Source: an uncultured Oscillospiraceae bacterium (GTDB taxonomy: Bacteria > Bacillota > Clostridia > Oscillospirales > Oscillospiraceae). Taken from it: a stretch of 64,000 nt of DNA. Shown here piece by piece: positions 3,917 to 44,617 of the stretch. The position numbers and the translations under genes are program-made. The stretch lies in the NCBI GenBank assembly GCA_944387285.1, contig CALXEH010000005.1, positions 1-64,000 of the forward strand, in the 5' to 3' direction. Each line of letters opens with the position of its first letter. The first letter of the stretch is position 1. The notes beneath the pieces are model-generated. The model was given only the letters and a program-made list of their open reading frames with translations, was not told the origin of the DNA and did no database searches.

Positions 3917-6502
3917 TCATTTCTCCTTTAAAAATACCTCCAGCCGGTGCTCGCTGCCCGGCGCGGCCTCCTCCATGAACCTGCGCGGCACGCTGTTCCC
4001 GGGCAGGGTCGTCCCGTCCAGCACGAGCTGCGGCCTGTACTGCCCGTAGTCCAGCCCGAGCGGGTCAAAATAGCTGACGGTCCATGAGAGCCCGCCGAAG
4101 CGCAGCCTGACCGAGGCCGTCTTGTTTCTGTCGAACTGTCCCGCGAGCAGCTTCGGCTCTATGCACATCGCGCCCAGCCTGCCGCGTATGCCGTACATCT
4201 GCCCTACCACGGTGCGGAGCGTCCAGGCCCCGGCGCCGGTGAGATAGTGGTACACGCCCCGGCCGTCCGGCTCAAAATACTCCGGTATCCCGGGGTATAT
4301 CCTGCTCTTCTCAAAGTCCAGGGCCTGCCCGAAGAGCGCGGTGAGCGCCTCGAAGCCCTCGCGCACAAAGCCGCGCTCATAGAGCGCGCAGGCGTACATG
4401 ACCGCCATGTGGCTGAACACCGCCCCGTTTTCCTTGGTGCCGTAGGCAAAGGCGAACATCCGCCCGAGGCGGTTCGGCCTGTCGCCGAAGTCCGTATTCA
4501 GCCGGTAGCCGCCGCAGTCCCCGTCGAAGAGCAGCCGCCTCGCCGCGCGGACGAGCTGCGCGGCCTGCGCGTCGTCCGCGACGCCGGACATGAGCGCGAA
4601 GACCTGGCCCGTCAGCATCATCCGCTCGCGGCCGGGTCCGGCGCACTCCGCCCTCTCCCCGGCCTCGTCGTAATAGCTGTTGAACCAGCCGTCCTCCCCA
4701 GCCTGCAGCCACTCCTGAGCCCTCAGCCTCGCGCCGAGCTTCCCGGCCTCGCGCCGGAGCGCAGCGGAGATGCCGCGGGTCTGAAAGCTCTCCCGCTCCG
4801 TGCCCGCGCCGGAGGCGCAGGCGCGGCAGTAGTCCCCGAGCCGGGCGTCTTCCTCCAGCAGCATCCCGACGCGGCGCGGGAGCGCGAGGGCCGTGACGCC
4901 CCGCTCCGACAGGGCGTCCAGCATGTCTGAGAGCCGCTCAAGGCTCAGGCAGTAGGCAAAAGAAAAGGCTACGCTCTCGCCGCGCGTCGGGGCCATGTCG
5001 AGCGCGTCGTTCCAGTCCGCACCGCGCAGGCGCAGGGCCCCGTGCCCGCCCGTCTCGCGCACCGCCGCGAGCTGGCTTATGATGAGGTGCTCCGCCACGG
5101 TGCCGGGCGCCTCCTTCACCGGCTCGGGCAGCCGCCGCGTGCCGCGCATGACGAGGCCGTCCGAAAAATACGGCACTTCCTCGAGCAGGAGGGGCAGGTC
5201 GCCCGTCCTGTCTATGTACTCGCAGATCGTCAGCACCGGCCAGAAGGCGTGGTCCATCCAGACCCGGACGATGTCATTCCTGTCCGCCCGGAACTCTCCG
5301 GGGCGCTCGCCGATGATGGTGGCGTTGGTGCCGTCCGTCCGCATGCCGCCGCAGTAGGCGGCCAGCTGTGAGCGCAGGCCGTCCTCGCCCGAGAGCAGCA
5401 GGCCGAGGCTGTCCTGCCAGAGGTCGCGCCAGCCGCGGCCTCCCCTGCCGTAGTCGTGGTGGGGCAGGAAGGAGCAGCCAAAGATGCGCCGTAGCACCGG
5501 CTGCACGCCCACCCAGCGCAGGAGCAGGTCGAACTCGCGCCTGCCGCTCTCAAAGCGCAGGGGCGCCGCCTCGTTCCACCAGCGCCTCGTCTCGTCCAGC
5601 GAGCGCGAGAGCTCCTCGACAGAGGGCAGTACGGGCTCCGCCCCGTCCCGCGCCAGGCCGATGAGCAGCCAGAACTCCGCCTCCTCGCCCGGCTGCAGCG
5701 CGACCGGCGCGAACCTCAGCGCGCCCACGGTCTCGCGGCCCTCGAGCCTCGCGTCGGGGCGGTGTCCGGCGCGCTCCTTCACCACCCACTCGGGCCAGAG
5801 CAGGCTGCCGCCCTCGCCGGTATACTCGAGCCTGTCCAGGCAGAACTCCCGCGGCGGCGCGCCGGTGCCGTCCATGCCCAGGACGAAAAAGCTGTCCGAG
5901 TTCGGCCGGTGCCCGCGCTCGTCGAAGGACCAGGCCGGCCTGAGCACCACGCCGTTTTCCGTGCTCCACGCCCGGTGCAGCAGCGAGGTCACATGCCGGT
6001 GGTCGCGCAGGTTGTCCGCGCTCCTTCCGTAGAGCGGCACCGCCGCCGTCGGCGTGAAGCAGACCGGCTCCGTCCCTCTGTTCCTTATTACGAAATGCGT
6101 GATCTCCGCAAGCGGCATCGACGGCGCTATCCAGCTCGTCACCCGGCTCTCGAGCGGGAAGGCCGCGTCTGATACCCTCAGCCGGTGCCACAGCAGCCCC
6201 GCCTCGACCATCAGCTCCGCGGGCTCGGCCAGCCGCCGCGCGTCGTGGCCCGTCATGGAGCGGCAGCGCCCGTCAGCGAGCCTGCACCAGAAATTGCGGC
6301 TCTCCACGCAGTCCTCGAGGTCCTGCACGCTCGCCGGGCGCAGGACAAAGCCCTCCTGTCCCAGCTTGCAGTCCCCGCCCAGCCTCGGCGTCACGCTGGA
6401 CTTCAGCCCGCCCTCGGCGCAGAGCGGAAAATACAGGCCCGAGACGCGCTCCGCGTGCCCGAGCCTGAAATCCCCGTCGCTTCCCACAAAGCTCAAAGCC
6501 AT
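3917..6502 (-). CDS. GH94-type phosphorylase (laminaribiose/cellobiose phosphorylase-like)
   Basis: An 861-residue cytoplasmic enzyme. I place the start at the ATG at 6502, which overlaps the GH17 gene by 10 bases and follows a GAGGAA-type ribosome site. The open frame continues further upstream, but that part is out of frame inside the GH17 gene and has no protein-like character. The GH94 catalytic signature RGADWNDALD lies near residue 495, where the general-acid Asp of GH94 enzymes is expected. YGRGGRGWRDLWQDSL (about 345) and NATIIGERPGEFR are further family-type blocks. The family phosphorolyses beta-glucosidic bonds to sugar-1-phosphate. The neighbouring GH16, GH17 and GH161-like genes suggest laminaribiose or short beta-1,3-glucans as substrate, but cellobiose cannot be excluded. 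Confidence 0.82.
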   Translation of the reverse strand: MALSFVGSDGDFRLGHAERVSGLYFPLCAEGGLKSSVTPRLGGDCKLGQEGFVLRPASVQDLEDCVESRNFWCRLADGRCRSMTGHDARRLAEPAELMVEAGLLWHRLRVSDAAFPLESRVTSWIAPSMPLAEITHFVIRNRGTEPVCFTPTAAVPLYGRSADNLRDHRHVTSLLHRAWSTENGVVLRPAWSFDERGHRPNSDSFFVLGMDGTGAPPREFCLDRLEYTGEGGSLLWPEWVVKERAGHRPDARLEGRETVGALRFAPVALQPGEEAEFWLLIGLARDGAEPVLPSVEELSRSLDETRRWWNEAAPLRFESGRREFDLLLRWVGVQPVLRRIFGCSFLPHHDYGRGGRGWRDLWQDSLGLLLSGEDGLRSQLAAYCGGMRTDGTNATIIGERPGEFRADRNDIVRVWMDHAFWPVLTICEYIDRTGDLPLLLEEVPYFSDGLVMRGTRRLPEPVKEAPGTVAEHLIISQLAAVRETGGHGALRLRGADWNDALDMAPTRGESVAFSFAYCLSLERLSDMLDALSERGVTALALPRRVGMLLEEDARLGDYCRACASGAGTERESFQTRGISAALRREAGKLGARLRAQEWLQAGEDGWFNSYYDEAGERAECAGPGRERMMLTGQVFALMSGVADDAQAAQLVRAARRLLFDGDCGGYRLNTDFGDRPNRLGRMFAFAYGTKENGAVFSHMAVMYACALYERGFVREGFEALTALFGQALDFEKSRIYPGIPEYFEPDGRGVYHYLTGAGAWTLRTVVGQMYGIRGRLGAMCIEPKLLAGQFDRNKTASVRLRFGGLSWTVSYFDPLGLDYGQYRPQLVLDGTTLPGNSVPRRFMEEAAPGSEHRLEVFLKEK

Positions 6503-7410
6503 TTCCTCATCTCCCCGACAACAGTTTTCCCGCGCCTGTCCTCCCGGAACAGGCCCCAGTGCTTCTCCGGCTCGCCCGCCGACGCGCCGCCCTTCCACGG
6601 CTCGTCGAAGGCCTCGAAGATGAAGCACGGCAGGCCCGCGTTCCTCATCCAGCCCAGCGCGGCCTTCAGGTACTCCGCCTGCGAGGCCTCGGACGCCTCC
6701 TGCGTCAGCATCTGCGGGCTGTCCGACTCCGTCGCCCAGCCGAATTCGGTGACGACCAGCCTCCTGCCCGGCAGCGCCGCCGACACCCGCGCAAGGTCGC
6801 GCTCCATGTGCCCGACCGCCTCGCGCAGCGGCACCCGGTTCCACTGCGGGTAGCTGTGCACGCCCAGGAAATCCAGCTCAGAGGCCAGCTCCGCCAGCCC
6901 CGGCCACTCCCACGCGCCCTCGCAGTAGCCCACGGGCAGGCCCGAGCCGGCCTTCAGCCTGCGCGCGAAGGCGCACAGGCGCTCCCCGGCCACGAGGTCC
7001 GCGCCCCATGACGGCCTGTTCTCGTTGCCCACGGAGAGGGCCAGCATGTGCTTCTCATACTTTCGGGCCAGCTCCAACAGCCGCCCGAGCTGTGCGTCGT
7101 TCCGCCTCGCGTTTTCGGCGTACCGCTCCGCGGCCAGCGGCCCGGGCGTCCACGGGCAGCCGGGGTTGTGGTACTCCGCGGCGGGGTCGATGCCGAGCAT
7201 AACTTTGAGAGGCAGGCCCTTTGCGGCTATGAGCTCCAGCACCGTCTCCGCGTGGAGATTCGGCTCGTACATCCTCAGCCGCCGGAAGCCCAGGTCTGCA
7301 AGCAGCCCGAGGTCCTCCAGCACCTGCTCTTTTGTCGGGAACACGCCGTTTACCGGACTCTGGCCCCGCCTGAAGCCCGAGTAGCACACGCCCGGGAGGG
7401 CTTCCTTCAT
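6493..7410 (-). CDS. GH17-like glucan endo-1,3-beta-glucosidase, cytoplasmic
   Basis: A 305-residue (beta/alpha)8-barrel-type protein. VGNENRPSW near residue 128 fits the GH17 acid/base (the Glu of the GNE motif), and VTEFGWATES near residue 230 fits the nucleophile (E-x-GW). The start GVCYSGFRRGQSP resembles the first barrel strand of GH17 enzymes (GVNYG-type), and LGVHSYPQWN is a typical barrel motif. There is no signal peptide, so it should act on imported oligosaccharides. The ATG abuts the stop codon of the upstream response-regulator gene with no gap, which implies translational coupling. GH17 enzymes usually hydrolyse, or transfer, beta-1,3-glucan chains. Confidence 0.75.
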   Translation of the reverse strand: MKEALPGVCYSGFRRGQSPVNGVFPTKEQVLEDLGLLADLGFRRLRMYEPNLHAETVLELIAAKGLPLKVMLGIDPAAEYHNPGCPWTPGPLAAERYAENARRNDAQLGRLLELARKYEKHMLALSVGNENRPSWGADLVAGERLCAFARRLKAGSGLPVGYCEGAWEWPGLAELASELDFLGVHSYPQWNRVPLREAVGHMERDLARVSAALPGRRLVVTEFGWATESDSPQMLTQEASEASQAEYLKAALGWMRNAGLPCFIFEAFDEPWKGGASAGEPEKHWGLFREDRRGKTVVGEMRKWL

Positions 7411-36006: not shown

Positions 36007-37122
36007 ATGAAGAAACTGTTTGCGATTCTCCTTGCCGCGATACTCTGCCTGGGCCTGCTGGCAGGCTGCGGCCAGACGACCATCATAGTCAACATGGGTG
36101 ATGAAGATGACGCCGCCGACGCCACCCCGACCCCCGAGGTCGTAGAGACTGAGCCGCCCGCCGACGACACTGCGGCTCCCGTGGTTGACGACACTCCGCT
36201 GCCCGAGGGTCAGCTGAAAACCGGCCTCGCGCTTGTCTCCGTCGTGTCCAGCAGCTCCAAGGCCGCCACTGCCGATGCCGACGGCAATGCCCAGGCCGAC
36301 ACCACCTTCGTGGCCGTGCTCGTGGACGGCGACGGTGTCATCCAGGACTGCCTCATCGACTGCGTGCAGACCAAGATAGCTTTCAACGCCGCCGGCGAGA
36401 TCGTCACCGCGGCGAACACCGCGTTTGACTCCAAGATCGTGCTCGACGACGCCTACGACATGCGCAAGGCCAGCCCGATAGGCGCCGAGTGGGATGAGCA
36501 GGCGAACTTCCTTGCCGATTATGTCGTTGGCAAGACCATCGATGAGGTCAAGGGCATCGCTCTTGACGACGGCGGCAAGCCCACCGACGCCGACATCACC
36601 ACCGGCTGCACCATGAACATAGCTGAGATCGTCACCGGCATTGAAAACGCCGTCGCGAACGCGAAGGTCCTCGGCGCGAATGTTGGCGACACCCTGTACA
36701 TGAACTGCAACGCCATTGTCTCCGACAGCTCCAAGGCTGCCTCCGCGGACGGCGACGGCAACGCGCAGGCCGACGTGACCGTGGGCGCCTACACGCTCGA
36801 TGCCTCCGGCGTTATCACCAGCTGCTACCTCGACTGCGTGCAGGCCAAGATAGCCATCACCGCGGCGGGCGAGGTCGCCTCCGAGGTCGGCGCCTCCTAC
36901 GACTCCAAGCTCGTGCTCGACGACGCCTACGACATGCGCAAGGCCAGCCCGATAGGCGCCGAGTGGGATGAGCAGGCCTGGTTCTTCGCCGAGTACGTCA
37001 CCGGCAAGACTCCGGCCGATGTTGCCGGCATAGCCCTTGACGAGAGCACCCACCCGACCGATGCCGACATGACCACCGGCTGCACCATGGCCGTCGGCGC
37101 TTTCATCGCGGTCATAAAGTAA
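36007..37122 (+). CDS. Lipoprotein with two FMN-binding-like repeats
   Basis: 371 residues. The signal peptide ends in a lipobox (LLAGC), followed by an acidic Thr/Pro/Asp tether (to ~75) and two ~140-residue repeats (about 79-225 and 240-371). Both contain SSKAA-x-ADG/ADADGNAQAD, a DSK-I/L-VLDDAYDMRKASPIGAEWDEQ block and end in DxxTTGCT (near 197 and 358). That ending matches the ApbE flavinylation motif Dxx(S/T)G(A)T with Cys in place of Ala, so each repeat may carry FMN on the Thr. The ApbE gene is 6 bases downstream. GGAGGT precedes the ATG. The likely role is an outer-face flavin electron carrier tethered to the membrane. Confidence 0.8.
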   Translation: MKKLFAILLAAILCLGLLAGCGQTTIIVNMGDEDDAADATPTPEVVETEPPADDTAAPVVDDTPLPEGQLKTGLALVSVVSSSSKAATADADGNAQADTTFVAVLVDGDGVIQDCLIDCVQTKIAFNAAGEIVTAANTAFDSKIVLDDAYDMRKASPIGAEWDEQANFLADYVVGKTIDEVKGIALDDGGKPTDADITTGCTMNIAEIVTGIENAVANAKVLGANVGDTLYMNCNAIVSDSSKAASADGDGNAQADVTVGAYTLDASGVITSCYLDCVQAKIAITAAGEVASEVGASYDSKLVLDDAYDMRKASPIGAEWDEQAWFFAEYVTGKTPADVAGIALDESTHPTDADMTTGCTMAVGAFIAVIK

Positions 37123-37128
37123 GTATAC

Positions 37129-38226
37129 ATGCCTAAGCTGAGAAGTCCGCGGGCGCGGCGCTGGAAAGCCCTGCTGCGCCTCGCGGCGCTCTCGCTGGCT
37201 CTGCTGACACTCACCGGCTGCTCCACGACGCAGATAATAGACGTGGGGCAGTCGTCTGAGACGGTGGGGCCGGAGCTCACGAGATACCAGGCGAGCTTCC
37301 TCGAGCTCTTCGACACCGTGACCACGATCATAGGCTACGCGGAGTCGGAGGAGGAGTTCCGGGCCGTCGCCGAGGAGATCAAGGCGGGGCTGGAGGAGTA
37401 TCACGAGCTCTACGACATCTACAATGAGTACGAGGGCATAAACAACATCAAGACGATAAACGACGCGGCGGGCGGAGAGCCCGTTGCCGTCAATGGGAAG
37501 ATCATAGAGCTGCTGCTCTTCTGCCGGGAGATGTACGAGGCGACGGGCGGCAAGCTCGATGCGGCCATGGGCTCCGTGCTGAAGCTCTGGCACGACGCGC
37601 GCGAGGCCGGGGAGTATTCCGAGGACGGGCAGCTGCCCGACCAGGCGGCGCTCGAGGCTGCGGCGGAGCACTGCGATTTTGATGCGATAATAATAGACGC
37701 CGAGGCCGGCACCGTACAGATAACAGACCCGGAGACGAGGCTGGATGTCGGGGCCGTGGCCAAGGGCTATGCGACGGAGCAGGTCTGCAAGGACCTGCCC
37801 TCAGGCTATCTTGTGAGCGTCGGCGGCAACGTCCGGGCCAGCGGCATGAAGCCGGACGGCACGGACTGGGTGGTCGGCATACAGGACCCCGACGGCGGCA
37901 CGGAGGACTATCTGCTGACGGTCTTCGCCAAGGGCGGCTCCGTCGTCACGAGCGGGGATTATCAGCGTTACTACTATGTCGACGGGGTGAAGTATCACCA
38001 CATCATAGACCCCGAGACGCTGTATCCGGCGTCGCTCTGGCGCTCGGTATCGGTGGTCTGCGGCAACTCCGGCCTGGCGGACGCGCTCTCGACGAGCCTG
38101 TTCACCATGACGCAGGACGAAGGCCTTGCGCTGCTGGAGGAATTCGGGGCCGAGGCCCTCTGGGTCGCGGCCGACGGGGAAATATCGTACAGTCCGGGGT
38201 TTCCCGAGTATATAAAAGAGCAGTGA
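37129..38226 (+). CDS. apbE: FAD:protein FMN transferase ApbE (lipoprotein)
   Basis: 365 residues. An Arg-rich start and helix lead to a lipobox (LTGC). The domain has FDTVTTIIGY, then NINTINDAAG-like NIKTINDAAGGEPV, and the ApbE core LDVGAVAKGYATEQV followed by GYLVSVGGNVRASG and a DYQRYYYVDGVKYHHIIDPET block, where substrate and Mg/FAD contacts lie. ApbE moves FMN from FAD to a Thr of target proteins outside the membrane. It sits between the two-repeat lipoprotein and rnfC, among proteins with eight candidate target motifs, so those are its likely substrates. Confidence 0.95.
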   Translation: MPKLRSPRARRWKALLRLAALSLALLTLTGCSTTQIIDVGQSSETVGPELTRYQASFLELFDTVTTIIGYAESEEEFRAVAEEIKAGLEEYHELYDIYNEYEGINNIKTINDAAGGEPVAVNGKIIELLLFCREMYEATGGKLDAAMGSVLKLWHDAREAGEYSEDGQLPDQAALEAAAEHCDFDAIIIDAEAGTVQITDPETRLDVGAVAKGYATEQVCKDLPSGYLVSVGGNVRASGMKPDGTDWVVGIQDPDGGTEDYLLTVFAKGGSVVTSGDYQRYYYVDGVKYHHIIDPETLYPASLWRSVSVVCGNSGLADALSTSLFTMTQDEGLALLEEFGAEALWVAADGEISYSPGFPEYIKEQ

Positions 38227-38256
38227 AAACGCGAAAAAGAGTAGAGAGGTGAAAGT

Positions 38257-39549
38257 ATGAAGCAGCTTTTCAGGGGCGGCATCCATCCCAACGACGGCAA
38301 GGCGCTGTCGAGGGGCGGAACGCCCGTCCCGATGCCGGCGCCTTCTAGGGTAATCATACCCATGTCCCAGCACATCGGCGCACCCTGCAGCCCTCTGGTC
38401 AAGGTGGGCGACACGGTGAAGCTGGGTCAGAAGATAGGCGACGGCGAGGGCGTCTGTTCGCCCGTGCACGCCTCGGTATCCGGCACCGTGGCGGCGGTGG
38501 AGCAGATGCCTATCCCCGGCGGCCGGAAGGCCGTGTGCGTCGTCATTGAGAACGACGGCAAGGACACGCCCGACACCGCCATCCAGCCCCGCAAGTCGCA
38601 CAAGGAGCTCAGCCCGGCGGAGCTCGCGGGCATAGTCCGCGAGGCGGGCATCTGCGGCATGGGCGGCGCGGCCTACCCCACGAACTCCAAGATACTTTCG
38701 ACCGCGGGCAAGACCGAGACCCTGCTCATCAACGCCTGCGAGTGCGAGCCCTACATCACCTCCGACGACATGGTGATGTGCACCTGGCCCGAGAAGGTCA
38801 TCATGGGCGCGAGGATCGTGGCCGACGTCATCGGCGCGAAGCACACCGTCATCGCCGTGGAGGACAACAAGCCCGAGGCCATCGAGGCGCTCAAGGCCAA
38901 GGCCGAGGGGCAGGAGGACATCGAGATCCGCGCGCTGCCGACCCGGTATCCGCAGGGCGCGAAGAAGCAGCTCATCCTGGCGGTCACCGGGCGTGAGGTC
39001 GCCCCTGGCGCGAGGACGGGTGCGCTCTTCAACGTCACGACGATATACTCGATATACCGCGCGGTGTACGAGGGCCTGCCGATAACGGAGAAGGTCGTGA
39101 CGGTGACGGGCGAGGGCGCGAACGCGCCGAAGAACGTCATCGTGCGCATCGGCACACCGCTGGAGGAAGTGCTGAACTTTGCCGGCGGCGTGAAGGAGGA
39201 GACCTGCAAGGTCGTCTGCGGCGGCCCCATGATGGGCGTGGCGCAGGGCGACCTGTCCGTGCCGGTAGTCAAGGGCACGAACGCGCTGCTCTGCCTCGTG
39301 AACCCGAACCCGCCCGCCGCGGACCCGACCTGCATCCGCTGCGGCAAGTGCATGGAGGCCTGCCCCATGGGGCTCCAGCCTCTGAACCTGTACAGGTATG
39401 TGAACTCCGGCAACAAGGAGGAGCTGCAGAGGCTCAACATGGAAGACTGCATGGAATGCGGCTGCTGCGCCTACGTCTGTCCCGGACACCTGCCCCTGGT
39501 CGAGACCTTCAAGGCGGGTAAGAAACTGCTCAAGGAGGTAAAGAGGTAA
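38257..39549 (+). CDS. rnfC: Rnf-type electron transport protein RnfC
   Basis: 430 residues. It begins with GGIHPNDGKALSRG and the biotinyl-like strand region VHASVSGTV, then GICGMGGAAYPTNSKI (the NADH/FMN-binding G-x-GGAxxPT block), LLINACECEPYIT, and two [4Fe-4S] motifs CIRCGKCMEACP and CMECGCCAYVCP. RnfC is the cytoplasmic-side subunit that exchanges electrons with NADH. Its stop overlaps the rnfD start by one base (TAATG). It is encoded directly after apbE. Confidence 0.95.
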   Translation: MKQLFRGGIHPNDGKALSRGGTPVPMPAPSRVIIPMSQHIGAPCSPLVKVGDTVKLGQKIGDGEGVCSPVHASVSGTVAAVEQMPIPGGRKAVCVVIENDGKDTPDTAIQPRKSHKELSPAELAGIVREAGICGMGGAAYPTNSKILSTAGKTETLLINACECEPYITSDDMVMCTWPEKVIMGARIVADVIGAKHTVIAVEDNKPEAIEALKAKAEGQEDIEIRALPTRYPQGAKKQLILAVTGREVAPGARTGALFNVTTIYSIYRAVYEGLPITEKVVTVTGEGANAPKNVIVRIGTPLEEVLNFAGGVKEETCKVVCGGPMMGVAQGDLSVPVVKGTNALLCLVNPNPPAADPTCIRCGKCMEACPMGLQPLNLYRYVNSGNKEELQRLNMEDCMECGCCAYVCPGHLPLVETFKAGKKLLKEVKR

Positions 39550-40520
39550 TGAACCTGACTGTGACCTCCGCACCCCACATCCGCAGCGGCGACTCGACGC
39601 AGCGGACCATGCTGGACGTGCTCATAGCTCTCATCCCCGCGCTCATCGCCGGGGTCGTGCTCTTCGGCATGAGGGCGCTGGTGCTGACCGTCATCTCGGC
39701 GGCGGGCTGCGTCGTGGCCGAACTGCTCGTGAATCTCGTCATGAGGAAAAAGCCCACCGTCGGCGACCTTTCCGCGGTAGTCACCGGCGTGCTGCTGGCC
39801 TTCTCCCTGCCCGCCAGCTGCCCCTACTGGGTGGTGCTCGTGGGCGACGCCTTTGCGATCATCGTGGTCAAGGGCCTCATGGGCGGCCTGGGCCAGAACG
39901 TCTTCAACCCCGCGCTGGGCGGCAGGGCCATCATCATGCTCTTCTGGCCCGCGACCATCACGAGGTACACCACCGAGGCGGTGCCCGCCTTCAACTTCGG
40001 CGCGGTGGATATCGTCTCCTCCAGCACCCCGCTCCAGACCATGGCCCGGCCCGCGCTGCCTGATGCGAGCCTGCTCGACATGTTCCTCGGCAAGATCGGC
40101 GGCTGCATCGGCGAGGTCTGCACCCTCGCGCTGCTCATCGGCCTTGTCTACCTGCTCTGGCGCAAGGTCATCAGCTGGCGCATACCCGTGGCCTACATAG
40201 GCGCGGTCGCCGTGCTGACGCTCATCTTCAACAAGGGCGACGACGCCTTCGTCTGGATGCTCTACAGCGTCATGGGCGGCGGCGTGATGCTCGGCGCCAT
40301 CTTCATGGCCACCGACTACGTCACGAGCCCCGCGATGCCCGCGGCCCAGCTCGTCTACGGCCTCGGCTGCGGCGTGCTGACCGTCATCATCCGCTACTTC
40401 GGCATCTTCCCGGAGGGCGTGACCTACGCTATTCTCATCATGAACGCCTTTGCCTGGGCGCTTGACAAGGCCGTGCCTGTGAAGCGCTTCGGTGTGGCGA
40501 AAGGAGGTGCCGGGAAATGA
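39549..40520 (+). CDS. rnfD: Rnf-type membrane subunit RnfD
   Basis: 323 residues, with about nine to ten helices (NqrB/RnfD family). Blocks SGDSTQRTMLDVLIALIPA, QNVFNPALGGRAI, and ATDYVTSPAMPAAQL are typical. The covalent FMN site is visible as DIVSSSTPL (Thr near residue 160), an Sx(A/S)T variant of the ApbE motif. It conducts electrons between the faces of the membrane, coupled to ion movement in complete Rnf complexes. The gene overlaps the next one by 4 bases (ATGA). Confidence 0.93.
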   Translation: MNLTVTSAPHIRSGDSTQRTMLDVLIALIPALIAGVVLFGMRALVLTVISAAGCVVAELLVNLVMRKKPTVGDLSAVVTGVLLAFSLPASCPYWVVLVGDAFAIIVVKGLMGGLGQNVFNPALGGRAIIMLFWPATITRYTTEAVPAFNFGAVDIVSSSTPLQTMARPALPDASLLDMFLGKIGGCIGEVCTLALLIGLVYLLWRKVISWRIPVAYIGAVAVLTLIFNKGDDAFVWMLYSVMGGGVMLGAIFMATDYVTSPAMPAAQLVYGLGCGVLTVIIRYFGIFPEGVTYAILIMNAFAWALDKAVPVKRFGVAKGGAGK

Positions 40521-42901
40521 ACGAGAGCATGAAAAAGCTGCTTATCCCCGTCGCCGTCATACTGGTCTGTGCGATCATCCTCGCGGCGGCAGGCGCCGGT
40601 CTGGCCGGCACCGCGGCGGCTAACGCCGAAAAAGAGCTCAATGACATGATCGCCTACCTCATGCCCGGCGGCGGCGAGTTCGAGGAAGTCGAATACACCG
40701 GCTCCGACGCCAAGATCACCAACATCTATAAGGGCGAGGGCGGCTATGTCCTGGCCATGACCACGAATGGCTTCGTGGACGAGATAAAGCTCCTCGTCGC
40801 CGTAGACAACGACGGCGTGGTCAAGGGCTACACTGTCAGGGACATCCACGACACCTACGGCCTCGGCCTTGGCGTACAGGATGACCTGTTCTTCCTCGTT
40901 GGTCTCATGAACTCCCAGGGCGACCTCGCCGTGAACAGCAACATCGACGCCGTAACCGGCGCGACCATCAGCTCCTCCGCCGTCGTCGCCTGCGTGAACG
41001 CCGCGAGCAAGTTCGTGCAGGAGGCCGGCGCGGCCGGCGTGCTCACCGGCACCGCCGACGGCTTCATGGGCCCCATCACCGTCTCCGTCACCATGGACGG
41101 CGACACCATCACCGCCGTTGAGGTCGTCTCCAACAGCGAGACGCCCGAGATAGCGGGAGGCGCCCTTGAGCAGATACCCGCCGCCATCGTCGCGGCCAAT
41201 TCCGCCGACGTCGATATCGTAGCGGGCGCGACCTACACCAGCAACGGCATAATCAACGCCGTCAAGAACGCGCTCGAGAGCGCGGGCGGCGCGGGCGGCG
41301 CCCTCACCGGCACTGCCGACGGCTTCATGGGCCCCATCACCGTCTCCGTCACCATGGACGGCGACACCATCGCTGCGGTCGAGGTCGTCTCCAACAGCGA
41401 GACTCCCGAGATCGCCGGCAATGCGCTCGAGCAGATCCCGGCCGCCATCGTCGCGGCGAATTCTGCGGATGTTGACATCGTCGCGGGCGCTACTTACACC
41501 AGCAACGGCATAATCAACGCCGTGAAGAACGCGCTCTCCGGCGGCAGCTCCGAGCCTGAGCCGGAGCCCACGCCCGAGCCGACCCAGGCCCCGCAGACGG
41601 CGGCTGAGGCCTACCAGGGCTTCGGCCTGTCGAACACCGTGCGCATGGGCCCGGGCTCCGACGACACGGGCACGCCGGTCTACAGCATCAACCAGGTCTT
41701 TGCCAACGTCGTATTCGACGGCGACGGCAAGATACTCGCCATCTACGTCGACCAGCTCGAGTACGCCACGCCGAACTACGACGGCGCGTCCATGCCGCAC
41801 TTCAGCGGCTGGCCCGGACAGGGCGGCTACAACAACGACTCCAACCACGACGCCGTGGTGGACGGCACCACGCCCGACACCGAGGAGCAGTTCACCGAGG
41901 AGGTCGCGGGCTGGCTCACAAAGCGCGACAGGGGCGAGGACTACGTCATGGGCACCGGCACCTGGCACGAGCAGATGGACGCCTTCCAGCGCCTTTTCAT
42001 CGGAATGACCGTCGATGAGGTCGAGGAATGGTTCGCGAAGTACTGCTCCGACGCCAACGGCCGCCCGCTCACCGAGAACAGCTCCGGCGAGGGCGACGCC
42101 GAAAAGTACGCGGCGCTGACCGACGACGAGAAGGCCATGCTGGCCGACGTCACAAGCTCCGCCACCATGAGCCTGAACGACAGCCATGGCGACATCCTCT
42201 CTGCCATCCGCAAGGCCTACGAGAACCGCGTGCCGCTCGGTGCGATGAGCGCGACGGGCATGGGCCTCGGACTTTCCAGCACCGTGCGCATGGGCCCCGG
42301 CTCCGACGACACGGGCACGCCGGTCTACAGCATTAACCAGGTCTTTGCCAACACGCTGTTCGACAGCGAGGGCAGGATCGTTGCCATCTACGTCGACCAG
42401 CTCGAGTACGCCACACCGAACTATGACGGCGCGTCCATGCCGCACTTCAGCGGCTGGCCCGGACAGGGCGGCTACAACAACGACTCCAACCACGACGCCG
42501 TGGTGGACGGCACCACGCCCGACACCGAGGAGCAGTTCACCGAGGAGGTCGCGGGCTGGATCACCAAGCGCGACCGGGGCGATGACTACATCATGGGCAC
42601 CGGCACCTGGCACGAGCAGATGGACGCCTTCCAGGAGCTCTTCGTCGGCATGACGGTGGACGAGGTCGAGGAGTGGTTTGCGAAGTACTGCTCCGACGCC
42701 AACGGCCGCCCGCTCAAGGAGTCGAGCTCGGGCGAGGGCGACGCCGAGAAATACGCGGCGCTGACCGATGACGAGAAGGCCATGCTGGCTGATGTGACGA
42801 GCTCCGCCACGATGAGCCTGAACGACAGCCATGGCGACATCCTCTCTGCCATCCGGGCTTCCTTCGACAACATGGTCACCGTGGACCTGACGCTGGGCTG
42901 A
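40517..42901 (+). CDS. rnfG: RnfG-like multi-flavin protein with five attachment-like motifs
   Basis: 794 residues, against ~190-220 for normal RnfG. An N-terminal helix (~8-32) is followed by an RnfG-like FMN_bind domain ending in DAVTGAT (near 150). Two nearly identical 78-residue FMN_bind units follow (176-253, 263-340), each with DIVAGAT. A Pro/Glu-rich linker (~345-366) leads to two nearly identical ~200-residue units (about 369-568 and 584-783), each ending DVTSSAT. All five motifs keep Asp six residues before the Thr that ApbE modifies. The last two units share the W-x-EQ...G-x-T-x-DEV layout of the upstream lipoprotein's repeats. It likely extends a chain of flavins away from RnfD. 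The gene order C-D-G is normal; the size is not. Confidence 0.88.
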   Translation: MNESMKKLLIPVAVILVCAIILAAAGAGLAGTAAANAEKELNDMIAYLMPGGGEFEEVEYTGSDAKITNIYKGEGGYVLAMTTNGFVDEIKLLVAVDNDGVVKGYTVRDIHDTYGLGLGVQDDLFFLVGLMNSQGDLAVNSNIDAVTGATISSSAVVACVNAASKFVQEAGAAGVLTGTADGFMGPITVSVTMDGDTITAVEVVSNSETPEIAGGALEQIPAAIVAANSADVDIVAGATYTSNGIINAVKNALESAGGAGGALTGTADGFMGPITVSVTMDGDTIAAVEVVSNSETPEIAGNALEQIPAAIVAANSADVDIVAGATYTSNGIINAVKNALSGGSSEPEPEPTPEPTQAPQTAAEAYQGFGLSNTVRMGPGSDDTGTPVYSINQVFANVVFDGDGKILAIYVDQLEYATPNYDGASMPHFSGWPGQGGYNNDSNHDAVVDGTTPDTEEQFTEEVAGWLTKRDRGEDYVMGTGTWHEQMDAFQRLFIGMTVDEVEEWFAKYCSDANGRPLTENSSGEGDAEKYAALTDDEKAMLADVTSSATMSLNDSHGDILSAIRKAYENRVPLGAMSATGMGLGLSSTVRMGPGSDDTGTPVYSINQVFANTLFDSEGRIVAIYVDQLEYATPNYDGASMPHFSGWPGQGGYNNDSNHDAVVDGTTPDTEEQFTEEVAGWITKRDRGDDYIMGTGTWHEQMDAFQELFVGMTVDEVEEWFAKYCSDANGRPLKESSSGEGDAEKYAALTDDEKAMLADVTSSATMSLNDSHGDILSAIRASFDNMVTVDLTLG
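41042..41536. repeat. Tandem repeat inside the rnfG-like gene, unit type A (two copies)
   Basis: 41042-41275 and 41303-41536 encode almost identical 78-residue FMN_bind units at a 261-base spacing. DNA identity is very high, including synonymous sites, which suggests recent duplication or conversion. Confidence 0.85.
41621..42864. repeat. Tandem repeat inside the rnfG-like gene, unit type B (two copies)
   Basis: About 41621-42219 and 42266-42864 are near-identical at a 645-base spacing. Long blocks, for example around GCCGCACTTCAGCGGCTGG, are the same in both. Confidence 0.85.
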
Positions 42902-42921
42902 ACGGCTGAAAGGAGAAGAGT

Positions 42922-43368
42922 ATGAAAGCTGTAACTTATAAGCTCAATACTGTACTGGCCGGGGTCGTGGGGCTCATCTGCCTCGTGCTCATGCTCGTGC
43001 GCACCTTCATGCCGCAGGCCATACTGCCTCTGGCCGACATCCCGAATCTGGCGGCGGTCTGCGCGGCGGCGCTGGTCATCGACTGCTATCTGGAGTGGAA
43101 GCGCGTGCCGAAGCGCGACTGGGTGCTGACGGCCGTGCTGTCCGTGCTGACCTTCTGGCTGCTGCCCTGGGCGGCGGGCGTGACGAGCGGCATAGGCGAG
43201 GCCCTGAGGCTGGGCGTCATCGCCGGCGCGCTGTTCACGATCATGGCCTTCCTGTTCAACGCGATACAGGACCGCATGGTCTCGGGCAAGTTCTGCCTCC
43301 TCGCCCCTGTCTGCGTGGGCCTGGGCATGTATCTCGCCTGCCAGTGCTTTGCGGGCATCCTGCTGTAA
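42922..43368 (+). CDS. Small membrane protein of unknown function
   Basis: 148 residues with about five helices (for example LAGVVGLICLVLMLVRTF, WVLTAVLSVLTFWLLPWAAG, VIAGALFTIMAFLFNAI). It starts 20 bases after the rnfG-like gene with an AAAGGAG site, in the place where rnfE would be expected. It is too short for RnfE/RnfA (about 190-200 residues, six helices) and lacks their motifs. Two Cys lie in the last helix (LACQCF). I do not recognise it. Position suggests a structural or electron-passing partner of this reduced Rnf-like complex. Confidence 0.8.
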   Translation: MKAVTYKLNTVLAGVVGLICLVLMLVRTFMPQAILPLADIPNLAAVCAAALVIDCYLEWKRVPKRDWVLTAVLSVLTFWLLPWAAGVTSGIGEALRLGVIAGALFTIMAFLFNAIQDRMVSGKFCLLAPVCVGLGMYLACQCFAGILL

Positions 43369-43618: not shown

Positions 43619-44617
43619 TTACGCGAGGGCGGCGGTGATGATGGACATCTGGTAGACCTCCTCGGCGTTGCAGCCGCGGGAGAGGTCGTTGATGGGCGCG
43701 TTCAGGCCCTGCAGGATGGGGCCGTAGGCGTCGAAGCCGCCGAGGCGCTGGGCGATCTTGTAGCCGATGTTGCCGGACTGGATCTCGGGGAAGATGAAGG
43801 TGTTGGCGTAGCCCGCGACCTTGGAGCCGGGGAACTTCAGCTGGCCGACCGTCGGGGAGACCGCGGCGTCGAACTGCATCTCGCCGTCTATGTCGAACTC
43901 CGGCGCGAGGGCCTTGGCCTTGGCGCAGGCCTCGCGGGCGAGGTCGACGTTCGGGCCCTTGCCGCTGCCCTTGGTCGAGTAGCTCAGGAAGGCGACCTTC
44001 GGCTCCACGCCGAAGACCTTGGCCGTGCGGGCGCACTCCACGCCGGTCTCAGCCAGCTTGTCCGCGGCGGAGAAGACCACGTTGCCCTCCTTATCGAGGG
44101 TGTCGGTGTAATCGATGTTGATGGCGCAGTCGCCCATGACGAGGGTCTCGTCGCCGCGCACCATGACGAAGCTGGAGGACACGAGGTGGGCGCCGGGCTT
44201 GGTCTTGACGAGCTGGAGGGCGGGCCTGACGGTGTCGGCGGTGGAGTAGGTCGCGCCGCCCAGCAGGGCGTCGGCCTTGCCCATCTTCACTAGCATGGTG
44301 CCGAAGTAGTTGGACTTCTTCAGGGCGGCGGCGCAGTCCTCGGCGCTCATCTTGCCCTTGCGCAGGGCGACCATGGTCTCGACCATCTCGTCAAAGCCCT
44401 CGTAAGTCTCGGGGTCGATGATCTCCAGGCCCTCAATGTCGAAGCCGCCCTTCGCGGCCGCGGCCTTGACCTCATCGACGTTGCCGATGAGCACAGGGGT
44501 CAGGAAGCCGCCGGCCTTCAGCCTCGCGGCGCTCTCGAGGATGCGGGCGTCCGTGCCCTCGGGATAGACTATCTTGCGCGGGTTCTTCTTGAGTATCTCA
44601 ATCAGGTTCTCAAACAT
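43619..44617 (-). CDS. pta: Phosphate acetyltransferase
   Basis: 332 residues, normal for the single-domain bacterial enzyme. It converts acetyl-CoA and phosphate to acetyl phosphate for ATP generation by acetate kinase. Motifs: RKIVYPEGTDARIL at the start, LLGGATYSTADTVRPALQLV, SSSFVMVRGDETLVMGDCAIN, and SYSTKGSGKGPNVD and KVAGYANTFIFPEIQSGNIGYKIAQRLGG near the end. GGAGG precedes the ATG. No ackA gene is adjacent. Confidence 0.97.
   Translation of the reverse strand: MFENLIEILKKNPRKIVYPEGTDARILESAARLKAGGFLTPVLIGNVDEVKAAAAKGGFDIEGLEIIDPETYEGFDEMVETMVALRKGKMSAEDCAAALKKSNYFGTMLVKMGKADALLGGATYSTADTVRPALQLVKTKPGAHLVSSSFVMVRGDETLVMGDCAINIDYTDTLDKEGNVVFSAADKLAETGVECARTAKVFGVEPKVAFLSYSTKGSGKGPNVDLAREACAKAKALAPEFDIDGEMQFDAAVSPTVGQLKFPGSKVAGYANTFIFPEIQSGNIGYKIAQRLGGFDAYGPILQGLNAPINDLSRGCNAEEVYQMSIITAALA

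Follow-up and report, generated by a model that had tools for sequence, protein, structure and literature searches.

A six-gene operon (36007–43368, + strand) was found in the stretch of DNA analyzed here (64,000 nucleotides from an uncultured Oscillospiraceae bacterium; hereafter, the window). The operon encodes, in this order, a lipoprotein, ApbE, RnfC, RnfD, a long RnfG, and a small membrane protein designated M148, and the genes are separated by gaps of 6, 30, and 20 bases or joined by two short overlaps. RnfA, RnfE, and RnfB are missing from the operon, and a complete Rnf is encoded elsewhere in the genome. This feature is more unusual than the mixture of unit types in the RnfG protein, which a preliminary description of the sequence had singled out; that description noted neither the absence of these three subunits nor the membership of M148 in the cluster. 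Here, we propose that the operon probably encodes a non-pumping half of Rnf that exports electrons from NADH to an acceptor outside the cell.

Distribution of the half-Rnf cluster

Clusters with RnfC, RnfD, and RnfG but without RnfA, RnfE, and RnfB (half-Rnf) are referred to as the CDG type. When 200 genomes of the family were searched with the window RnfD, 11 of them, including that of the window, were found to hold close RnfDs. The order lipoprotein–ApbE–RnfC–RnfD–RnfG–M148 without RnfE, RnfA, or RnfB is kept in these 11 genomes from 6 genera as far as the contigs reach (two end inside rnfG, and that of G198 begins just before rnfC). Lipoprotein orthologs hold the same place in nine other CDG clusters, and M148 is seen in 9/11, the remaining two being those whose contigs end inside rnfG. 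Within the available sequence, neither RnfE nor RnfA follows RnfG in any of the 11 loci, and all canonical comparison loci with enough downstream flank continue as RnfG–RnfE(–RnfA). A fragmented canonical Rnf with RnfA/E/B just downstream was ruled out by these 11 loci and by the window itself, which reads on to pta at 43619. In the RnfD tree, the CDG proteins form one clade apart from the canonical ones (support of 100/100).

The window genome has RnfA/E (PF02508) only on contig C51, in a complete canonical rnfCDGEAB set, and RnfA/E are also encoded elsewhere in the genomes of 9 of the 10 relatives. In G135 (99% complete), the CDG cluster is present and RnfA/E were found nowhere in the genome, which indicates that the half complex can exist by itself. 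Seven other genomes encode a second, diverged RnfD; these genes were rejected as CDG members, as their loci are canonical or contain RnfE/A. The length of the C-terminal tail of RnfC could not be used to infer that contact with RnfB was lost, because the values in the CDG type (21–23 residues) overlap the canonical ones (21–50 residues). A locus on the minus strand of another genome (L094, G109:C9, 3800–10788) has the order lipoprotein–ApbE–RnfC–RnfD–double RnfG (438 residues)–RnfE–RnfA, followed by a small gene, with no recognizable RnfB.

Architecture of the long RnfG protein

The RnfG-type ORF (open reading frame; 40517–42901, + strand) encodes 794 residues, made up of RnfG and four additional domains. 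The preliminary description had called it about four times longer than normal, in agreement with the 185 residues of the ordinary RnfG of the same genome. The RnfG domain (40517–41032) consists of a transmembrane helix and the first FMN_bind unit, with the predicted flavin site DAVTGAT from residue 144 (Thr150; 40946–40966). The second (41039–41281) and third (41300–41542) FMN_bind units each contain DIVAGAT, from residues 233 (Thr239; 41213–41233) and 320 (Thr326; 41474–41494), respectively. They are followed by two C-terminal units (C-unit 1, 41615–42229; C-unit 2, 42260–42874), which we liken below to FMN-bind2 and which each contain DVTSSAT, from residues 544 (Thr550; 42146–42166) and 759 (Thr765; 42791–42811). 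All five motifs are present exactly as first described, and with DIVSSST of RnfD and DITTGCT and DMTTGCT of the lipoprotein, they make up the eight candidate sites that had been counted for the cluster.

In the hidden Markov model search with FMN_bind (PF04205), the check that the preliminary description had suggested, units 1, 2, and 3 scored 53.3, 74.8, and 73.8 bits (cut-off 22; Pfam E value of 1.1e-51), but neither units 4 and 5 (the remaining ~430 residues) nor the lipoprotein units were matched, and no other Pfam family was found for units 4 and 5. TIGR01947 (RnfG) gave 94.6 bits on the 794-residue protein, under its cut-off of 102. The model of the RnfG domain superimposed on RnfG of Acetobacterium woodii (9eri_G) with a Z score of 9.2 (154 residues, 5.3 Å), and that of the second FMN_bind unit on domain 2 of SaFMN3 (8p2a) with a Z score of 11.2 (82 residues, 2.2 Å). 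The fold comparison of the full RnfG model (VIA-align list) spans residues 1–343.

The strict motif Dxx[ST]GA[ST] occurs once in the protein, and the relaxed form Dxx[ST/A]xAT occurs five times and is kept in homologs. Composition shuffles of the protein contained 0.05 relaxed motifs on average and never more than 2, ruling out a chance origin of the five. Since the motifs lie in tandem repeats (94% identity between units 2 and 3 and 90% between units 4 and 5), they are not five independent events; it is their conservation in homologs that places them beyond chance. Each of the five Thr residues is a predicted attachment site and would carry a covalent FMN. The basic claim of an RnfG-type protein bearing several likely ApbE sites and sharing an operon with ApbE is thus supported, and the extra units are homologous to flavin-domain proteins.

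Relationship of the C-units to the lipoprotein

The C-units are two repeats of about 205 residues. Their homologs occur in Candidatus Scatomorpha intestinavium, Sedimentibacter hydroxybenzoicus, a Bacillota metagenome-assembled genome, and several other Clostridia. Candidatus Scatomorpha intestinavium, which belongs to the same genus as the window, has the same RnfG architecture, and its contig stops within the gene. In the homologs of Sedimentibacter, G160, and G536, a signal sequence precedes a single FMN_bind and a pair of C-units, and the neighborhoods read contain no Rnf genes; the Sedimentibacter protein was accordingly ruled out as a second RnfG and is a stand-alone lipoprotein. The Asp and the Ala-Thr pair of the motif are invariant in 12/12 complete C-terminal-type units examined, and the canonical SGAT or AGAT appears in some homologs (DVTSGAT, DVVSGAT, and DVVAGAT), with SGAT in Sedimentibacter.

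Profile alignment with hhalign connected the C-units with the lipoprotein units (E value of 1.7e-17, 98.9% probability) with their motifs aligned together, versus E values of 0.09 or worse for unrelated control pairs. The comparison with FMN_bind/RnfG was weak, with E values of 0.0014–0.0031 for the lipoprotein units (motifs aligned too) and 0.09 for the C-units. Because the C-units and the lipoprotein units are homologous, the operon contains two domain families, namely FMN_bind (FMN-bind1), present three times, and a second family, of which RnfG and the lipoprotein have two copies each. The three unit types noted in the preliminary description thus reduce to two families, and FMN_bind with paired C-units is found in the stand-alone lipoproteins as well.

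The C-unit model has the order of three β-strands, helices, motif, and helix, with a long β1–β2–β3 first (pLDDT mostly 70–92). The model of the lipoprotein unit matched 3o6u with a Z score of 5.8 (104 residues, 4.0 Å) at a pLDDT of 52, and IscU-like folds score alike. A sequence search of the Protein Data Bank with the C-units and the lipoprotein gave nothing significant. The units of this second family are 150–205 residues in size; among the cluster lipoproteins, the full-length ones examined have two or four copies (two in general, four in G196 and G051), RnfG has two, and single-unit proteins exist (L021, L027, and L029). By size, pairing, and predicted topology, the family best matches the published FMN-bind2, to which it is likened by description, not by sequence. 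FMN-bind2 has been described (Huang et al. 2024, PMC11334425) as an FMN_bind fold of about 160 residues or more, with inserts that enlarge the face of the sheet and with even copy numbers. The features that may be shared are a size of about 150–205 residues, an extended β face, an occurrence mostly in twos or fours, and an ApbE-like motif, whereas single-unit members are present here.

The lipoprotein family in loci for extracellular electron transfer

At least seven further families of the class have full-length members of the lipoprotein family. In three of these families, at four loci (L099, L101, L102, and L106), the lipoprotein adjoins ApbE directly after an EetB-family gene, within a locus for extracellular electron transfer (EET) that has the order Ndh2-like NADH oxidase, polyprenyl synthase, 1,4-dihydroxy-2-naphthoate prenyltransferase (UbiA), NusG_II (EetA-like), EetB (PF07456), lipoprotein, and ApbE. 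The Pfam and NCBIfam assignments come from L102, with which the remaining three loci were equated by visual comparison of N-termini; the NADH oxidase is called by Pfam Pyr_redox_2 only, and the gene list of L106 has no separate call for polyprenyl synthase. The two-unit lipoprotein of L102, the sole one tested, is matched by no Pfam or NCBIfam model. We take the order of the four loci to be that of the FLEET (flavin-based EET) locus of Listeria, with the lipoprotein at the position of PplA.

An eetB-family gene (PF07456) also lies beside 6/11 CDG clusters, and the window genome has an EetB homolog on another contig. PF07456 genes have been used as a marker of FAD exporters, and eetB is adjacent to Rnf in 572 Clostridia genomes (PMC9973259); thus, eetB alone is no indicator of EET.

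A second motif at the C terminus of short RnfG proteins

The RnfG proteins of the CDG type vary in length, with 177–178 residues in G135, G053, and G198, similar lengths in G118, G022, G074, and G157, 347 residues in G196 (RnfG plus two FMN_bind), and 794 residues in the window. In the seven genomes with short RnfG (five genera; L080–L087), the protein ends with GAD[VI]xxxATxWG, about 30 residues past the normal RnfG motif, as in GADVDSGATQWGG of G135 and GADVSSSATEWGG of G053. This ending was seen in none of the canonical RnfG C termini examined. Seven residues suffice for ApbE, and engineered flavin tags perform best at a terminus (PMC12052999), so that the ending is plausible as a natural flavin tag, that is, a second ApbE-like site. 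The canonical RnfG (L009, 5330–5887) and RnfD (5871–6911) of the window genome bear the nonstandard motifs DSITAAT and DAATMAT, and the ApbE of this lineage may therefore tolerate a relaxed motif.

Other genes of the operon

The lipoprotein (36007–37122, + strand, as are all genes of the operon; 371 residues) has two FMN-bind2-like units with DITTGCT at residues 196–202 (36592–36612) and DMTTGCT at residues 354–360 (37066–37086). ApbE (37129–38226), a predicted lipoprotein FAD:protein FMN transferase (Pfam ApbE, E value of 2e-66), starts 6 bases past this gene. RnfC (38257–39549; NADH/FMN subunit; TIGR01945, 473 bits, above the cut-off) retains both 4Fe-4S motifs (CIRCGKCMEACP and CMECGCCAYVCP). 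Its NADH/FMN domain has Cys161 and Cys175 in 9/9 half-Rnf proteins versus 0/21 and 1/21 canonical RnfC proteins, respectively; a disulfide or a metal site is possible. The membrane subunit RnfD (39549–40520; 323 residues; TIGR01946, 300.6 bits, above the cut-off) has the candidate FMN site Thr169 in DIVSSSTPL (40035–40055). Thr169, Asn126, Asn129, and Asp265 are invariant across CDG and canonical RnfDs, and we take Asn126/Asn129 and Asp265 to be the counterparts of the residues that bind riboflavin in canonical Rnf.

M148 (42922–43368; 148 residues) is conserved directly after RnfG in the cluster, has no Pfam family, and is hardly found beyond the bacterial family. Its profile aligned with the two C-terminal helices of RnfA over 55 columns (E value of 3.6e-5) with a score of 36.8, compared with 22.3 for the best of 150 block-shuffles and 20.7 against RnfE. 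The last 55 residues of M148 align, it has no conserved Cys, and its gene occupies the position where rnfE would begin. M148 is quite possibly, though somewhat less likely than not, a remnant of RnfA that has no 2Fe-2S ligands and retains a docking role. No Rfam elements were found in the window. In Candidatus Scatomorpha intestinavium, a gene for a 111-residue membrane protein lies between ApbE and RnfC (L019, 5358–5693), and the window has no counterpart.

Proposed mechanism and alternatives

The chain of A. woodii Rnf has been described as RnfA/E–FMN(G)–FMN(D)/riboflavin–RnfC–NAD, in which RnfD performs electron transfer only and no Na+ transport (PMC11889175). Ferredoxin and RnfB feed RnfA/E, which were assigned as the Na+ pump (PMC11889175; PMC12174285). 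When RnfA/E/B are removed, the path between NADH and RnfG is left, with the outward flow proposed for NQR/RNF-like systems (PMC8238504; PMC11334425). In the proposed exporter, RnfC (FMN and two 4Fe-4S clusters) would oxidize NADH, and the electrons would cross the membrane via RnfD (riboflavin and FMN on Thr169) to the FMN of the outer RnfG domain; the NAD half of Rnf would thus run outward with its ferredoxin and pump half missing. From RnfG, they would pass through the fused C-terminal flavin units and the two-unit lipoprotein, as the carrier at the position of PplA, to an acceptor outside the cell, and with the added units and the lipoprotein, the chain would reach farther through the wall. 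ApbE would attach the FMNs, and M148 probably replaces RnfA/E as the membrane dock of RnfG. The product would be regenerated NAD+ (a redox valve) with no ion pumping. SaFMN3, which is related, has a flavin potential (about −184 mV; PMC10339131) that suits electron acceptance from NADH. The outward wire envisaged in the preliminary description thus gains a link with EET from the place of the lipoprotein in the loci of other families, but the direction, the acceptor, and the occupancy of all five Thr residues are what we infer.

Several points weigh against the exporter. Most relatives have an RnfG of ordinary length, so that a long chain is unnecessary for the basic function, and the operon includes no terminal reductase. 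The structure models were built on four and two sequences (pLDDT of 66 and 52), the C-units and the lipoprotein units are unrecognized by Pfam, and their motifs deviate from Dxx[ST]GA[ST]; in a test protein, changes of Gly to Ala or of Ala to Val in the motif about halve flavinylation (PMC12052999). In genomes that also encode a complete Rnf, its RnfA/E/B subunits could be used by the CDG proteins as well.

This last point leads to a reading in which RnfC/D/G of the window type are alternative subunits that join the chromosomal RnfA/E/B, so that ferredoxin would feed a complex from which electrons have another way out to external acceptors; this would be the bifurcated multi-flavin Rnf proposed earlier (PMC8238504). 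RnfA/E are found in 10/11 CDG genomes, multi-flavinylated RnfG has been published within full RNF clusters (PMC8238504), and the double RnfG of L094 is followed by RnfE and RnfA. Nevertheless, the separate clade of CDG RnfDs, a dedicated membrane protein (M148) in the gene position of RnfE/A, and the CDG cluster of G135 make this arrangement unlikely. The extra units may instead be flavin stores or scaffolds and no wire, in which case FMN would sit only on units 1–3, and the C-units would attach to a partner or to the cell wall. The lack of a Pfam match and the variable motifs of the C-units and lipoprotein units fit this idea, as does purified SaFMN3, which has one potential for its three flavins, shows no directionality, and is oxidized by O2 (PMC10339131). 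The invariant Asp and Ala-Thr of the C-units, the SGAT in Sedimentibacter, and the homologous two-unit lipoproteins adjoining ApbE in EET loci argue otherwise, and we regard stores or scaffolds as a minority possibility of some weight. An inward operation, in which an outside donor reduces the flavin lipoprotein or RnfG and RnfD–RnfC make NADH, would follow the forward direction of canonical Rnf, from RnfG via RnfD and RnfC to NAD+ (PMC11889175). It appears improbable to us, as the flavin potentials are too high for ready reduction of NAD+ without a driving force, and the other neighbors of the lipoprotein include an Ndh2-like NADH oxidase.

An extension of the exporter hypothesis is offered more tentatively. 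The CDG clusters may form a distinct exporter family, composed of an NAD-half Rnf, an RnfA degenerated to a cluster-free dock (M148), and, in most genera, GAD[VI]xxxATxWG as a natural flavin tag at the C terminus of RnfG, the tag being swapped in the Scatomorpha lineage for whole flavin domains, some of them of the EET-lipoprotein family. We would at present consider this doubtful.

Comparison with known systems and implications

The operon shares with Rnf (RnfABCDGE; A. woodii, 9eri; Clostridium tetanomorphum, 7zc6) the gene order C–D–G and homologous RnfC/D/G, in which the cofactor ligands and the FMN-Thr sites are the same. It differs in having neither RnfA and RnfE (with the membrane 2Fe-2S cluster) nor RnfB, in the four more domains of RnfG, and in the addition of M148, ApbE, and the flavin lipoprotein. 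That multi-flavin proteins are already known, as the preliminary description had said, is correct; the survey by Meheust et al. (2021, PMC8238504) reports proteins with as many as 13 sites, as well as RnfG proteins that contain several domains for FMN binding. These RnfG cases are described there as RNF complexes, whereas the window operon is without RnfA/E/B, and its last domains are FMN-bind2-like. The NQR/RNF-like systems (PMC8238504; PMC11334425) are likewise partial Rnf/Nqr with a single path, for which an outward flow of electrons from NAD(P)H has been proposed. They have an NqrB/RnfD-like domain fused to an NqrF-like NAD domain and lack the RnfD flavin site, whereas the window has a separate RnfC and an RnfD that is without the NAD domain and keeps DIVSSST. 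The FLEET locus (Ndh2, DmkA/B, EetA/B, PplA, and FmnB) also combines a two-flavin-unit lipoprotein with ApbE, and the lipoprotein family is at the position of PplA in the loci of other families; in the window operon, the lipoprotein and ApbE are the only such genes, with no Ndh2 or quinone genes, and RnfC-D-G would be the electron source.

Partial RNF systems appear in the survey text consulted solely as RnfD–NqrF fusions (PMC8238504). No report of a stand-alone RnfC-D-G was found in the literature searched; survey supplements and subscription papers lie outside this scope, and the cluster could be listed there among RNF clusters. What appears to be new is the half-Rnf rather than the number of flavin sites. 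If the proposal is true, the Rnf pump can be split into a working half that carries electrons only, and gut Clostridia could dispose of electrons from NADH extracellularly with no need of Ndh2 or quinones. As a natural complex without RnfA/E, it would bear on the question of which Rnf subunits pump ions, and Rnf and flavin-based EET would be linked via one shared lipoprotein family.

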